A DNA stretch of 64,000 bases from Cyclobacteriaceae bacterium (GTDB lineage: Bacteria; Bacteroidota; Bacteroidia; Cytophagales; Cyclobacteriaceae): assembly GCA_019694875.1 (NCBI GenBank), contig JAIBBC010000002.1, forward strand, positions 248,001-312,000, written 5' to 3'. The notes under the pieces are model-generated. The model was not told the DNA's origin. It saw nothing but the letters and a program-made list of their open reading frames with translations, and ran no database searches. Within the stretch, counting starts at the first letter, position 1. Each line of letters opens with the position of its first letter. Position numbers and translations under genes: made by a program. Of the stretch, positions 1,278 to 5,404 are shown piece after piece.

Positions 1278-1691
1278 ATGAGCCAACAACCTGCGTTAAC
1301 TTTTTTAGTGGTTGATGATGATGCAATTTTTCATTTTCTGATGATGAAATTGCTCGAGCGCCTGGGGATACCGGCCCACTCCGTCCGCACTGCATTAAGC
1401 GGCCGGGAAGCGCTCGACCTGATGGTAGAAGCCCGGCTTACGGGAAAGGCTTACCCGGATTTTATCATGCTGGATTTAAACATGCCGATGATGGGCGGTT
1501 TTGCTTTTTTGGAAGCCTGCCATAAACTTCCGGAACGACTACCACAGCAGGTAAAAATCATTATCATCTCCTCTTCTCTCGATAAACGCGACCGCGACCG
1601 GGCATTGCATCTCGGGGCCAGTCATTATTTGATTAAACCCGTAACGGAAACCGACCTCGAAGCAATTCTGAGATCATCCGAATCGAAGTAA
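1278..1691 (+). CDS. CheY-like single-domain response regulator
   Basis: This receiver-only protein has 137 aa. Acidic residues are Asp13-Asp14-Asp15 (LVVDDDA), the phosphoacceptor is Asp66 (MLDLNMPMMGG), Ser residues follow in IIISSSLD, and the Lys is in LIKPV. The ATG lies 1 bp after the stop of the small upstream gene; an upstream in-frame ATG inside that gene would add 18 unlike residues and was not used. It is the last gene of the three-gene receiver operon. Two different receivers in one operon suggest a branched phosphorelay, but no kinase is in the same transcript; the nearest kinases are the tandem set about 1.4 kb downstream. Confidence 0.9.
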   Translation: MSQQPALTFLVVDDDAIFHFLMMKLLERLGIPAHSVRTALSGREALDLMVEARLTGKAYPDFIMLDLNMPMMGGFAFLEACHKLPERLPQQVKIIIISSSLDKRDRDRALHLGASHYLIKPVTETDLEAILRSSESK

Positions 1692-1754
1692 ACCGGTTTT
1701 TCGGTTGTCACTTCTAAATTTCGTATTGTTGAAGTCGACAAAAAACAGGTACGT

Positions 1755-2048
1755 ATGATTATACGGATAGTCAGGATGCATTTAAGGGAGGCCGGAGTGG
1801 ATGAATTCCTCCAGATTTTTAATGCCAACAAGCATGCAATTCGCAACTTTCCCGGGTGCACACATCTTCAATTACTGAAAGATGCCGGTGATCCGCTGGT
1901 GTACACAACATTAAGTCATTGGAACGGGGAAACTGACCTGGAAGCTTACCGGAAGTCGGAATTGTTTGGCAGTGTTTGGGGCAGGGTTAAAACATTGTTT
2001 TCCGAACGTACGCAGGCCTTTTCGCTGGTGAAATTTATCGAACTGTAG
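1755..2048 (+). CDS. Antibiotic biosynthesis monooxygenase (ABM)-fold protein
   Basis: This 97-residue protein has the ferredoxin-like ABM pattern: an N-terminal strand MIIRIVRMHL, a helix (VDEFLQIFNANKHAIRNFPG), a strand with LQLLKD, then the family hallmark of a Ser-His-Trp segment (TTLSHWNGETDLEAYRKSELF), and a last strand. The fold covers quinol monooxygenases such as YgiN, heme-degrading enzymes and stress proteins; the substrate cannot be read from sequence. It stands alone, 63 bp after the receiver operon and directly before a tRNA gene. A TAAATTTC box about 40 bp upstream is one base away from the TAnnTTTG consensus. Confidence 0.8.
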   Translation: MIIRIVRMHLREAGVDEFLQIFNANKHAIRNFPGCTHLQLLKDAGDPLVYTTLSHWNGETDLEAYRKSELFGSVWGRVKTLFSERTQAFSLVKFIEL

Positions 2049-2049
2049 A

Positions 2050-2080
2050 TTGTTCAAAACTTAAAGTTTGCCCATATTTG
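2050..2080 (+). promoter_or_regulatory. Probable promoter of tRNA-Leu
   Basis: TTG at 2050-2052 and CATATTTG at 2073-2080 are 20 bp apart, which matches the Bacteroidota -33 TTTG / -7 TAnnTTTG layout with one mismatch in each box. It would start transcription roughly 25-30 nt before the mature tRNA. Confidence 0.4.
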
Positions 2081-2112
2081 CAGCCCGATCAGCACGTCCG
2101 CTGGTCGTTTTT

Positions 2113-2194
2113 GCCTGAGTGGCGGAACTGGTAGACGCGCACGACTCAAAATCGTGTACCGCAAGGTGTGCCGGTTCGATTCCGGCCTTAGGTA
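2113..2194 (+). tRNA. tRNA-Leu (anticodon CAA)
   Basis: A class II tRNA of 82 nt folds by eye. The acceptor GCCTGAG pairs with CTTAGGT (with a G-U at 1:72), the D-arm contains GGTAGACGC, the anticodon stem CACGA/TCGTG encloses loop CTCAAAA with anticodon CAA, a variable arm follows, and the T-arm is GCCGG-TTCGATT-CCGGC. The discriminator is A73 and CCA is not encoded. It reads UUG codons. A strong hairpin terminator follows, and its 3' part is duplicated 330 bp downstream. Confidence 0.95.
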
Positions 2195-2340
2195 CAAAGT
2201 CCTGACAGTAATGTCAGGATTTTTTATATGTGGATAGTTTACGTTTTGCGAAGCGCGAAATCGGGCAAGCGTTATGTTGGCATGACGCAGGATGTAACGT
2301 TGAGACTCGCTCAACATAATTCCGGCAAATCGAAGTTTAC
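2167..2340 (+). repeat. Direct repeat copy 1: tRNA T-arm, terminator and GIY-YIG 5' half
   Basis: This stretch recurs at 2463-2670 at an offset of 330-331 bp. Part of the unit is genuine tRNA-Leu (T-arm and acceptor 3' strand), followed by the terminator and the first 113 bp of the nuclease gene. From 2178 to 2340 the two copies differ only by one extra T in the T run and by a one-base deletion and one substitution in the nuclease part. Confidence 0.9.
2201..2225 (+). terminator. Terminator of tRNA-Leu
   Basis: CCTGACA-GTAA-TGTCAGG is a perfect 7-bp hairpin with a tetraloop, followed by six T. It lies 6 bp after the tRNA. The start codon of the GIY-YIG gene is only 2 bp after the T run. Confidence 0.85.
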
Positions 2341-2485
2341 CTCAGGTCATATGCCATGGAAATTGATTTATCAGGAAACTTATTCAGGTAGCGTGGAAGC
2401 AAGAGTCCGCGAAAAGTACCTGAAGTCATCGCAAGGCAGAAGATTTTTGGATAAAGAATTAGGTGCCGGTTCCCTGCCCGACTGA
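2228..2485 (+). CDS. Small GIY-YIG nuclease family protein
   Basis: This single-domain protein (85 aa) has the motif pair WIVYVLRS...GKRYVGMT at residues 2-20, Arg in LRLAQHNSG, and Glu in the helix VEARVREKYLKS, all as in the short UvrC-N-terminal-like GIY-YIG group. That fold cuts nucleic acid; the target of this subfamily is not known to me. The ATG lies directly behind the tRNA terminator, so there is no room for its own promoter or a normal ribosome-binding site, and expression may depend on read-through. The last residues (GAGSLPD) and the stop are encoded by a second copy of the tRNA T-arm sequence plus a palindrome, so the gene end is not ordinary coding sequence. The first half of the gene is repeated downstream as a broken copy. 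Confidence 0.85.
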   Translation: MWIVYVLRSAKSGKRYVGMTQDVTLRLAQHNSGKSKFTSGHMPWKLIYQETYSGSVEARVREKYLKSSQGRRFLDKELGAGSLPD

Positions 2486-2507
2486 CTAGCGTCAGCGGTC
2501 AGGCGGG
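2473..2507. repeat. 35-bp imperfect palindrome inserted in a T-loop copy
   Basis: The insert runs from CCTGCCC to AGGCGGG and can fold into a hairpin around GACTGAC-TAGC-GTCAG, with further G/C-rich pairing outside. It separates TTC from GATT of the T-loop and leaves both flanks intact. It supplies the final Leu-Pro-Asp codons and the TGA stop of the GIY-YIG gene. Its size and shape are like REP-type palindromes, but I cannot tell from one copy whether it is repeated in the genome. Confidence 0.7.
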
Positions 2508-2530
2508 GATTCCGGCCTTAGGTACAAAGT

Positions 2531-2556
2531 CCTGACAGTAATGTCAGGATTTTTTT
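2531..2556 (+). terminator. Duplicated tRNA terminator
   Basis: This is the same CCTGACA-GTAA-TGTCAGG hairpin as behind the tRNA, here with seven T. It probably ends any transcript of the GIY-YIG gene. Confidence 0.75.
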
Positions 2557-2558
2557 AT

Positions 2559-2670
2559 ATGTGGATAGTTTACGTTTTGCGAAGCGCGAAATCGGGCAAG
2601 CGTTATGTTGGCATGACGCAGGATGTAACGTTGAGACTCGTCAGCATAATTCCGGCAAATCGAAGTTTAC
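2559..2670 (+). pseudogene. Truncated, frameshifted second copy of the GIY-YIG gene
   Basis: The first 26 codons are identical to the intact gene at 2228. Then one C is missing after TTGAGACTC (about 2639) and an A is changed to G nearby. The frame leaves the family sequence at once and stops at a TGA about 18 codons later. Nucleotide identity continues past the deletion to 2670, so the two copies were once collinear. The helix carrying the catalytic Glu is absent, so no functional nuclease can be made. Confidence 0.85.
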
Positions 2671-2890
2671 GTAATGTTAGTCGTTCATCCTGAACGTTAC
2701 GATGCCTGCAAATCAAGCTGTATCAAAAGTCGAAGAGAAGTTAATGTTGACTTTTAAAGTACGCTTCATCACTCATAGTTTGAGTACGTGAGAAACTAAA
2801 ACTCAGCTCCTCTATTCGGCAGTGGGTTGAGAATGTTGAGTGATCTTCACGATTTTTTTGCAGGCAAATGAAACCACCAACAAACATTAC
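2671..2890. other. 220-bp sequence of nested inverted repeats
   Basis: The ends are GTAATGTT (2671-2678) and AACATTAC (2883-2890). Inside them, TGCCTGCAAA (2703-2712) pairs with TTTGCAGGCA (2857-2866), and ATCACTCA (2768-2775) pairs with TGAGTGAT (2837-2844). A local hairpin CGTTCA-TCC-TGAACG lies near the left end. The arms are nested in the right order for one long folded structure. There is no coding sequence. It begins exactly where the GIY-YIG repeat stops. It may be a structured RNA or a small non-autonomous mobile element. The remaining 2891-3070 shows only an AT-rich leader with a CTACTTTACT tandem repeat. Confidence 0.5.
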
Positions 2891-3070
2891 AGTGTATTGA
2901 AAATGAAAAAAATGTGAAAGGTGTTGCTCTTCACGAACTTAGTGCAATCTACTTTACTCTACTTTACACAGGACAATTTTTATGCAACTCTTTCATTTAC
3001 AAATGTCTTCCATTATTCAAACAAACTGATAAATTGCCCGCTGTTGTCTAATTAATTTTTCCTTTAGCTC

Positions 3071-5404
3071 ATGGAACGAGTCGGGTGTTTGGCGGGAGAT
3101 AGTTTGCTTTTTAAAATTTCAACGTTAAAGAGAACCTGTTTATTTGCTGCTATTACTATTTGCATGTTGAGCGTTGTTTCCTGTGATCGACAGGGTGACG
3201 ACTACAACGCTGCAAAGACTGACATGTTTTTATTAAAGCAAGCACTTGATTCGGTTGATGTTCTGTATCAGGATCCCCAGGCCTATAAGATCATTACACG
3301 TGTTCGTGAGAAAGTTAACTCCGATCCGGGCAACGCGTTATACATTCGCACACTCCGGTTAACAACTACAGTTCTGCTGTCAAAACCATTTGCGTCTCTC
3401 GTTCAACTGGATTCGGCAGTTTCATTTGCTCACGAAGCCAAAAAATTGGCTTTGCTGGGACACGATTCAATTGAATGGGCCCACAACGAAATACAGATTG
3501 GCAGATACCTCTACCTCAGAAGTTTCTGGTTGCACGAAACCACCGAATTGCCGGGTGCTTCAAATGTGCTGTTGCGTGCCGTTCAATTTCTTGAGAAAAA
3601 AGAAGTGACAGACGGATTGTCGCAGGCATATCATTGGTTATCGGGGGCAACCGCTGTTGCAAATGATGGAGTTGCAAAGAAACTAACCTACGAACTGCGT
3701 GCTCTGCACTATAACGATTCAGTAAAATTCACCGCGCTTCGGGCTAAAATCTGCAATGACCTTGCGGTAATTTATAAAGACCATATGAAGAACATTCCCA
3801 AAGGAAAGAGTATGCTGTTTCGCGCGTTAACAATTTGGGAAAAGTTAAATGACGCAGATAGCGAGTCCGTGGTGCTCGCCAACATCGGTGAAGCATTCTT
3901 AAACGAAGGGGATGTCAATGAAGCCCTGCGATATTACAAGCTGTCGGCAAACGTAGCCGATTCCGCTAAGCATTGGAAACGGGAGGCTATTGCGTATAAT
4001 CAGATTGCCGAGGTGTTTCAAAAAAATTTCCGGTATGACTCAGCCATAATCTATAATAGAAGAGCAATTGATACTTTAAAAAACGATTCTACGTATTCTC
4101 CGGGAATGGTGATCCGGTGGCAGGCAAACCTGGCTGAAAGTTACATGGCTAAAGGTGATCGTGACTTTGCATTTAATCTCGTAGAAAAATTTGAACAAGC
4201 ACTTCCTCACATTGAAGGACAGGGATTAAGTGAAGATTTTGCTGCTCTTGAACATGTTGTTTCCACGCTTCCGCGAACAGGCGACTTAAAAAAGCTGGCC
4301 GATGCACAGCAAAAATTACTGGACTTGCGAAACACAATTTTCGCAAGGGAGCAAATGATTGAAGTGGGCCGGATCGAAAGTCAATATGAAATCCAGCTCA
4401 AGGATAAGGAACTTGAAGTTTTGCAGTTGTCGCTTTCGATTCAGGCCGAGAACGCAACAAAAGAAAAATGGATCCGCATTTTATTGATTATAGGAATTTT
4501 AATCACCACGTTGGGTTTAATTCTGGTGCTCAGGCTACTCCGGCAACAAAATAAGTTTAACAACTCGCTTGCGGAACGCAGTGAGATTATTGAACACCAG
4601 AAACACGAGCTGGAAAAAAATCTACAGGAGTTGCAGCGCACGCAAGGTTACATGCTCACGTCTGAAAAAATGGTTATGCTCGGCCAGTTCACGGCAGGTG
4701 TTGCGCATGAGTTGAATAACCCGTTAAATTTTATTTCGGGCGGAGTTTCTGTGCTGGATGATGTAGTGGAGAAATTCCTGGTTAGTGGAACAGCTTCCAA
4801 AGAAGATGTCAGTAAGGCTTCCATCGGATTGCGGGAAGTGCTCAAGAACATTAATAATGGAGTGGCCCGGATGGCAGCCATTGTTGAGAGCCTTCAAGTC
4901 TTTTCAAATTCAAAAGAAACCTTAACAGAAACCTCGGAAGCTGAGGTAAGCGAGTGCCTGGATGCTTCTCTCATGCTGATCAAATCCAAGCTCGACAGGG
5001 ATGCTATTGAGGTATTACAATCCTACACCCCTGTTAAAGTGCGCGGACATTCCGGGCGTCTCAGTCAGGTGTTCATAAACCTGATCGACAACGCGATTTA
5101 TGCTGTGCTGAATAATCCTGTTGGTGAAAGGCAGTTGGTGATTACGATGGCGATAACTCCGGATCGGGTTAATATAAACTTTGCTGACAATGGCCAGGGT
5201 ATACCGGAGGAAATTCACCGCAGTGTATTCCATGCATTCTTTACCACCAAGGAAACCGGTCAGGGTACCGGTCTCGGGTTATTCATTTGCTACAACATTG
5301 TCAAGGATTTTGGCGGAACGATAACGTTTGAAAGTAAGGTGGGCAAGGGTACTACATTCACGGTAAGTTTATTGCGATCAAAATTTACCTCAGAAAATTT
5401 CTAA
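3071..5404 (+). CDS. TPR-domain sensor histidine kinase (tandem paralogue 1)
   Basis: This protein of 777 aa is a hybrid of tetratricopeptide-like repeats and a membrane histidine kinase. Near the N-terminus is a hydrophobic segment ending in LSVVSC, a lipobox-like site. Helical repeats follow to about residue 440, then a transmembrane segment at about 468-490 and a coiled coil (EIIEHQKHELEKNLQELQRT). The H-box AHELNNPLNF has the phospho-accepting His546. The ATPase domain has the N-box (DNAIYAV), G1 (DNGQGIP), F-box (FFTTK) and G2 (GTGLGLFIC). There is no receiver or DNA-binding domain. The repeats are probably periplasmic and the kinase cytoplasmic. No clear ribosome-binding site precedes the ATG, so a later start a few codons in is possible. 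It is the first and only undisrupted leading member of three tandem copies. Confidence 0.88.
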   Translation: MERVGCLAGDSLLFKISTLKRTCLFAAITICMLSVVSCDRQGDDYNAAKTDMFLLKQALDSVDVLYQDPQAYKIITRVREKVNSDPGNALYIRTLRLTTTVLLSKPFASLVQLDSAVSFAHEAKKLALLGHDSIEWAHNEIQIGRYLYLRSFWLHETTELPGASNVLLRAVQFLEKKEVTDGLSQAYHWLSGATAVANDGVAKKLTYELRALHYNDSVKFTALRAKICNDLAVIYKDHMKNIPKGKSMLFRALTIWEKLNDADSESVVLANIGEAFLNEGDVNEALRYYKLSANVADSAKHWKREAIAYNQIAEVFQKNFRYDSAIIYNRRAIDTLKNDSTYSPGMVIRWQANLAESYMAKGDRDFAFNLVEKFEQALPHIEGQGLSEDFAALEHVVSTLPRTGDLKKLADAQQKLLDLRNTIFAREQMIEVGRIESQYEIQLKDKELEVLQLSLSIQAENATKEKWIRILLIIGILITTLGLILVLRLLRQQNKFNNSLAERSEIIEHQKHELEKNLQELQRTQGYMLTSEKMVMLGQFTAGVAHELNNPLNFISGGVSVLDDVVEKFLVSGTASKEDVSKASIGLREVLKNINNGVARMAAIVESLQVFSNSKETLTETSEAEVSECLDASLMLIKSKLDRDAIEVLQSYTPVKVRGHSGRLSQVFINLIDNAIYAVLNNPVGERQLVITMAITPDRVNINFADNGQGIPEEIHRSVFHAFFTTKETGQGTGLGLFICYNIVKDFGGTITFESKVGKGTTFTVSLLRSKFTSENF

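Follow-up and report, generated by a model that had tools for sequence, protein, structure and literature searches.

Why does a very small GIY-YIG nuclease gene sit between an intact tRNA-Leu(CAA) gene and a displaced copy of its 3' part? Is this a mobile unit, as an earlier note made from the sequence had proposed, or a local duplication? The locus lies in the window, by which the whole analysed stretch of 64,000 nucleotides is meant, and it was compared with other loci of the same genome (G000), its genus, its phylum and more distant bacteria.

The tandem unit at tRNA-Leu(CAA)

The features of the locus are collected in Table 1. The nuclease ORF starts 2 bp past the first T-run, just as the earlier note had described. 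The same set of parts, which had been placed 330 bp downstream, was recovered as two exact repeats (2178-2225 and 2508-2555, 48 nt; 2220-2309 and 2551-2640, 90 nt; both 100%) at offsets of 330/331 bp, followed by a weaker one (2311-2347 and 2641-2677, 89%). However, the duplicated tRNA part is not the continuous T-arm that had been assumed: the displaced copy is interrupted in its T-loop, between TTC and GAT, with no tRNA base lost, and the hairpin between the two tRNA pieces had been overlooked. The hairpin folds better than its shuffles (z -3.26, DNA parameters), and the nuclease ORF reads into the inner tRNA piece and the hairpin, which supply its final codons and its stop. The second nuclease copy was correctly seen as frameshifted and cut off, since it leaves the frame near 2640 and is no longer similar beyond about 2670.

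Table 1 Features of the tRNA-Leu(CAA) locus (positions in the window)
Feature	Position	Strand	Evidence and remarks
ABM-domain gene, upstream	1755..2048	+	Pfam PF03992, E 1e-12; anchors the tRNA-Leu(CAA) locus by synteny within the genus
Intact tRNA-Leu(CAA)	2113..2195	+	ARAGORN; Rfam RF00005, 54.1 bits
Terminator-like inverted repeat and T-run, copy 1	2200..2225	+	Sequence; 100% repeat at 2530-2555
GIY-YIG nuclease gene, 85 aa, single domain	2228..2485	+	PF01541, E 4e-14; stop 2483-2485
Displaced tRNA copy, inner piece (tRNA nt 56-65)	2463..2472	+	Script alignment
35-nt hairpin in T-loop of displaced tRNA copy, between C56 and G57	2473..2507	+	
Displaced tRNA copy, outer piece (tRNA nt 66-83)	2508..2525	+	100% identical to intact tRNA
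Terminator-like repeat, copy 2	2530..2556	+	
Second nuclease copy, 5' part, truncated and frameshifted (ATG 2559)	2559..2670	+	93% over residues 1-29

The nuclease is the only ORF in the unit, and no integrase was found among the scanned neighbours (the ABM gene, two response regulators and two histidine kinases), as the earlier note had also stated. An Rfam scan of window positions 1500-3300 gave nothing but the tRNA above the cut-off. An intron was rejected as an explanation: the tRNA is intact, the same scan gave no intron signal, and no self-splicing group I intron with a homing gene interrupts tRNA-Leu.

The nuclease retains the conserved Tyr, Arg and Glu of the GIY-YIG domain, and Y5, S9, Y16, G18, R26, H30, N31, E62 and K66 were invariant in 17 sequences; the conserved GIY-YIG residues are presumably catalytic. 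The AlphaFold model is one compact domain (mean pLDDT 90.9), and a separate C-terminal DNA-binding region is absent from the 85-aa protein. In the profile search, the nearest solved structures were UPF0213 (1zg2, E 2e-15) and SLX1 (7cq2, E 1.6e-7), to which Foldseek also pointed (best E 1.1e-3, prob 1.00). The median dN/dS of the family was 0.27, with a value of at least 1 in 0 of 238 pairs (the pairs being non-independent); judged from these ratios, the nuclease is under purifying selection. Four family proteins gave no PHROG match and a single NCBIfam match, a group I intron endonuclease model at 19.5 bits against a cut-off of 56.05. A defence gene was also considered and set aside (two proteins were without a PADLOC match), as was cargo of a phage or plasmid: family relatives outside chromosomes amounted to six weak phage records (all below 40% identity), two plasmid records and one viral contig. 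Such relatives are almost lacking, which leaves the family without a known vector and counts against a mobile element.

Recurrence of the unit and its empty sites

G000 itself gave ten nuclease matches at E <= 1, and the nucleases adjoin tRNA-Leu(CAA), tRNA-Arg(CCG), tRNA-Met, tRNA-Phe and tRNA-Pro(AGG). At tRNA-Arg(CCG) there are two units, with two hairpins in each displaced tRNA. When the tRNA genes of G000 were surveyed (35 entries, with Arg-CCG and Pro-AGG doubled through contig overlap), nuclease units appeared at these five, and hairpin-broken copies lacking a nuclease at tRNA-Thr(TGT), tRNA-Cys and a second tRNA-Met. Those at tRNA-Thr(TGT) and tRNA-Cys (L016 and L035) are tandem arrays of about four copies with periods of 104 and 126, made of tRNA 3' end, terminator and hairpin, in which no nuclease was found.

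All 17 genomes of the genus had nuclease matches, and the complete genus set (63 matches plus L009) was reduced to 55 loci. A same-strand tRNA gene lay within 400 bp at 41 of these; 27 of the 41 had a far-side partial tRNA copy of at least 11 nt, with a script-found hairpin in 17. An Arg-CCG unit is present in G013 (L048) and a decayed one in G002 (L051). Among the 14 genus loci lacking a tRNA, L007 and L051 resemble tRNA loci in decay, L052 lies at the end of a contig, L070 fits none of these types, and ten resemble another type when judged by eye. In eight of these ten, direct repeats stand on both sides of the gene (L009, L056, L084, L085, L086, L088, L089 and L091, the others being L090 and L093), and many of the flanking repeats are of a GTCATT..GCGAG type. 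It is possible that these tRNA-less genes with their flanking repeats form a nuclease-repeat system similar to RAYT/REP. In addition, the tRNA-Arg loci of G001 and G002 (L351 and L350) adjoin a long ORF that appeared serine recombinase-like by eye.

Across the phylum, identified as Bacteroidota through named relatives, 193 of the 296 sampled genomes carry the nuclease family. The final count comprised 199 loci, for which all predicted tRNA genes were masked, both sides were searched and two duplicates were dropped; duplicates had been left out before (9 loci in an earlier locus count, 7 in the 201-locus count), and the recount from 201 to 199 loci led to the same conclusions. A same-strand tRNA gene was found within 400 bp at 170 of 199 loci, for which the chance expectation is about 0.004 (about 0.4%, reckoned from the 33 tRNA genes of G000). 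The anchoring tRNAs represent 13 isotypes and 27 anticodons. A far-side partial copy of the linked tRNA was present in 148 of 170 loci at a length of at least 11 nt and in 145 at 13 nt or more, while 22 had no far-side copy. The far-side copy was broken by an insert folding with at least 4 bp in 113 of 170 loci, against 14 of 170 on the other side; the hairpin counts are lower bounds because the break finder misses arm replacements (L006, L060 and L065). Outside the genus, tRNA linkage was observed at 25 of 28 top loci, 37 of 39 picked loci and 67 of 77 loci from the contig search. The loci beyond the genus lean to the type seen in the window, since the 67 of the phylum search comprised the strongest matches and others chosen high up in the list, and the 77 of the contig search were drawn from the best 80 of 374.

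The carriers include the named cultured species Arenibacter troitsensis, Leeuwenhoekiella polynyae and Reichenbachiella agariperforans, MAGs titled Ignavibacteria and Neomarinimicrobiota, and a complete-genome MAG of Parcubacteria. Units were seen in both orders, as tandem arrays and as nuclease-less arrays; G250 and G308 each hold five full copies of equal score, spaced by 450 bp and 315 bp, respectively. At L118 (1124-1830), the nuclease is accompanied by a 3' fragment of tmRNA with a double mini-hairpin in its T-loop. For comparison, 58 tRNAs of the genus with no nuclease within 600 bp were searched over a span wider than that used for the units, in a set rich in Leu orthologues; ten had a partial copy of 13 nt or more, and nine a hairpin-broken one. 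Most of these nine are probably nuclease-less units or relics, and some may be due to chance. Taken together, the unit is apparently a widespread and undescribed bacterial element, in which a tiny nuclease gene usually lies between an intact tRNA and a partial copy of it, the latter often with a loop broken by a hairpin.

The ABM gene adjoins tRNA-Leu(CAA) in 15 of the 17 genus genomes including G000 (the exceptions are G012 and G015). A nuclease at this tRNA is intact in G000 and G006 and a relic in G012, and none was seen in the other 14. Two very close relatives, G004 and G005, whose RpoB proteins are 99.9% and 99.6% identical to that of G000, have a tRNA-Leu identical to that of the window and no nuclease on its contigs, which break at the tRNA. 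Past tRNA-Leu, G004 shows another terminator; in G005 (L329, 141-830), a different insert of some 660 bp that contains another ORF separates tRNA-Leu from a 21-nt remnant of its 3' end. The Arg-CCG tRNA is likewise identical in both genomes, and no unit was found in the 1.5 kb (G005) and 127 bp (G004) inspected beside it. Empty orthologous sites therefore exist, also in very close relatives. Contigs end at tRNA genes with units or potentially with units in G000 (C1/C2 and C1/C3), G004 (C37/C62) and G005 (C4/C16); such breaks with short overlaps perhaps reflect mixed alleles or longer arrays.

The possibility that one unequal crossing-over duplicated tRNA-Leu together with the nuclease, followed by decay and with no mobility, would account for the truncated second nuclease copy. 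It is refuted by the occurrence of the same layout at 27 anticodons and at tmRNA across phyla, by the empty sites and by the recurring hairpins, which leave it almost negligible. The earlier note had named units behind different tRNA genes, with empty sites elsewhere, as the sign of mobility, and both were found; an arrangement that is fixed and syntenic in all relatives and never occurs at other tRNAs, which would have spoken for a local duplication, is excluded by the same data. The mobile reading gains accordingly from the repeated units and the empty sites, movement itself being deduced from the comparison of genomes.

The tRNA-Leu gene of the window is only 72-76% identical to its genus orthologues, and it is 96%, 95% and 83% identical to those of MAGs carrying a cognate unit (L176, L177 and L175, respectively). 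RpoB of the L177 genome is 89% identical to that of G000 and RpoB of G006 is 93% identical, yet the tRNA-Leu of G006 reaches only 73%. Since the tRNA-Leu allele disagrees with RpoB, the data fit a swap of alleles between related lineages, whether together with the unit or not; the sorting of old alleles may explain the discord as well. An origin of the tRNA from a distant group of Bacteroidetes was rejected: RpoB of both L175 and L177 is 89% identical to that of G000, as near as in some genus members and nearer than in G126 of the same family (82%), and the RpoB search of the L176 genome was without a match. The exchange of tRNA alleles is weakly supported, as G004 and G005 share the window allele without a nuclease, the MAGs with the most similar tRNA-Leu are by RpoB about as near to G000 as the genus is, and the Arg-CCG unit of G000 sits on a native-type tRNA, all of which counts against it.

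Break sites, hairpins and nuclease lineage

The site of the break was found to depend on the order of the parts. When the intact tRNA came first, the breaks fell in the T-loop region (41), the anticodon arm (15), the D region (5) and the variable region (2), and when it came last, they fell in the D (41) and anticodon (9) regions and never in T (Fisher p 5e-15 for T). By this coupling, it is usually the copy on the outside, next to the native flank, that is broken; L003, with the broken copy on the other side, is a clear exception. In the 201-locus set, 58 of 115 first breaks had occurred without loss of a tRNA base, and T56/57 accounted for 23 of these 58. The outer piece matched the intact tRNA at 100% identity in 105 of 115 cases, a figure that the seed search favours. 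The insertion at the tRNA 3' end proposed by the earlier note proves too narrow: breaks lie in the T-loop, the anticodon arm or the D-loop, the intact tRNA also follows the nuclease, and one unit is on a tmRNA.

These data also bear on the idea that the duplicated 3' end is the att repeat of an integrative element at tRNA-Leu, with the nuclease as a passenger. tRNA 3' ends are common att sites, and the insert before the tRNA remnant in G005 would suit such a scar. The unit with its single ORF, the neighbours without an integrase, the hairpin and the inner tRNA piece all argue against it, and units with the intact tRNA last keep broken 5' tRNA parts, whose presence would not follow from an att site at the 3' end. 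This explanation is mostly refuted and we regard it as very unlikely.

A few types of hairpin were recognized, namely CC[T/C]G.. palindromes, short stems replacing the anticodon arm, and double mini-hairpins found mostly in Ser tRNAs; the classes were defined by hand, and 82 of 113 hairpins could be sorted. They were compared with a nuclease tree (FastTree, about 76 columns) by means of label shuffles, which take no account of host relatedness. Isotype changed 40 times on the tree against a shuffled mean of 108.7 (minimum 101 of 200 shuffles), hairpin class 10 times against 26.6 (82 classed), break site 32 against 52.2, anticodon 65 against 131, and side 24 against 48.7. The nuclease lineage tracks both the tRNA isotype and the hairpin class.

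The 14-nt start of the window hairpin occurs exactly at three places in the 17 genus genomes, twice at Leu-CAA and once at Arg-CCG, and all are in units. The hairpin thus seems to travel with the unit, and its random capture from a common repeat was rejected because its start was found in units alone in these genomes. The palindrome CCTGCCTGCCGGCAGGCAGG was found exactly in units of Bacteroidota and of an Ignavibacteriales MAG, and with one change in a Parcubacteria MAG. It also occurred outside units in 14 of 198 genomes, against 0 for the reversed control. In G023 and G002 (L271, L272, L273 and L274), it is nested in other repeats, often just before GAA/AAT.

The main rival of a homing element builds on these hairpins. 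According to it, branched or hairpin DNA is the substrate of a nuclease that resembles SLX1, and what moves is the hairpin, in the way that REPs do with RAYT transposases; the hairpin would settle preferentially in tRNA loops and take the nuclease gene with it. This would agree with the nearest solved relatives being UPF0213 and SLX1, the latter acting on branched DNA according to structure entry titles, with the recurrence of the palindrome in units of several phyla and outside units, with the nuclease-less arrays, and with the direct repeats that flank eight of ten tRNA-less related nucleases in the genus. However, exact copies of the start of the window hairpin were confined to units in the 17 genus genomes, and both the duplicated tRNA and the coupling between order and break site are left unexplained. 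We consider this alternative rather improbable.

Known systems and the proposed mechanism

It has been reported that the phage GIY-YIG enzyme SegB cuts in tRNA genes, with the motif RAWTSGAAC at 23 of 83 sites, that it prefers this motif and can do without it, and that it drives tandem amplification of tRNA together with segB (PMC13096335). By our own reading of the letters, RAWTSGAAC would be the reverse complement of the T-loop sequence GTTCSAWTY. The unit resembles SegB of phages T4 and T6 in having a GIY-YIG gene beside tRNA genes (PMC13096335; PMC2988022). It differs in that SegB is phage-borne, while the present family is chromosomal with only weak phage matches, and no hairpin-broken tRNA copy is described for SegB in the accessible parts of these two papers (PMC13096335; PMC2988022). 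SegB was the sole parallel, from phages, among the literature matches listed, which mostly covered papers outside subscription and held no such bacterial units; the accessible part of a GIY-YIG phylogenomics paper contains nothing on tRNA-linked units (PMC1564403).

The SegB precedent and the tandem arrays might also suggest a role serving the host, in which the nuclease amplifies tRNA genes under tRNA attack, as SegB does in phage T6. However, the additional tRNA copies are incomplete, most of them being broken by a hairpin, and so cannot supply tRNA, which makes such a role highly unlikely.

Other known systems share single traits with the unit. UPF0213 and SLX1 are the nearest by profile and Foldseek, but SLX1 works with SLX4, and we know of no UPF0213/SLX1 nuclease that is mobile or tRNA-linked. 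Like REP/RAYT, the unit ties small palindromes to a nuclease-like gene and has copies without the gene. RAYTs are Y1 transposases, whereas the present protein has a GIY-YIG domain (Pfam gives no Y1 transposase) and the frame of the unit is tRNA-derived. With tRNA-targeting integrative elements it shares the restored tRNA and a far end at which the 3' part of the tRNA is directly repeated, but not the integrase, and the unit of about 330 bp, the 5'-side units and the hairpin are foreign to them. The catalytic domain, and alleles with and without the nuclease at one site, are shared with free-standing GIY-YIG homing endonucleases. Known GIY-YIG homing enzymes carry an extra DNA-binding domain, while the present nuclease is without a separate C-terminal DNA-binding region. 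By analogy, the function resembles intronless homing, with cleavage as a presumed step.

The reading that we prefer, with a probability of roughly 0.58, is that of a minimal chromosomal, tRNA-anchored selfish element which would spread by homing-like repair at tRNA loops, its cleavage and transfer being presumed. Since the SegB motif appears to correspond to the T-loop, where many units break, we infer that the loop of the tRNA gene is cut and then repaired with a unit-bearing copy as template. The element would consist of the single-domain, UPF0213/SLX1-like GIY-YIG gene, a segment completing the tRNA, and the outer partial tRNA copy with its hairpin-broken loop. The nuclease would cleave a tRNA gene in the loop that harbours the hairpin, generally the T-loop in units that begin with the intact tRNA and the D-loop in those that end with it. 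When the break is mended from a copy bearing the unit, the unit would be inserted and one intact tRNA gene left, and the tRNA allele may at times be exchanged. A difficulty for this reading is that mere insertion at the cut would suffice to abolish the site, so that the inner tRNA piece and the hairpin call for an additional function; the hairpin may shield the leftover tRNA copy from renewed cutting and may itself be a substrate of the nuclease. Repeated breaks could lead to tandem amplification of the unit.

Several facts count against homing. The intact tRNA retains the presumed target, which leaves the avoidance of self-cutting unexplained, the nuclease has no extra DNA-binding domain, and hairpin-broken copies also occur at nine of the 58 nuclease-less control tRNAs. 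The 22 of 170 tRNA-linked loci that lack a far-side copy, and loci such as L003 with the broken copy on the other side, likewise depart from the expected layout. It is conceivable, although somewhat doubtful, that the units represent a new class of mobile element, in which a structure-specific GIY-YIG nuclease with its own hairpin homes to tRNA and tmRNA loops, rebuilds the gene that it breaks, can exchange the tRNA allele of its host and has nuclease-less satellites amplifying in tandem.

If the preferred reading is true, these units would be among the smallest autonomous mobile elements, overlooked behind tRNA genes. Many tRNA fragments would then find an explanation, as perhaps would some of the contig breaks that assemblies show at tRNA genes. 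The units might offer a route for the exchange of tRNA alleles, and GIY-YIG nucleases, palindromic repeats and the evolution of tRNA genes would be joined in one testable scheme.
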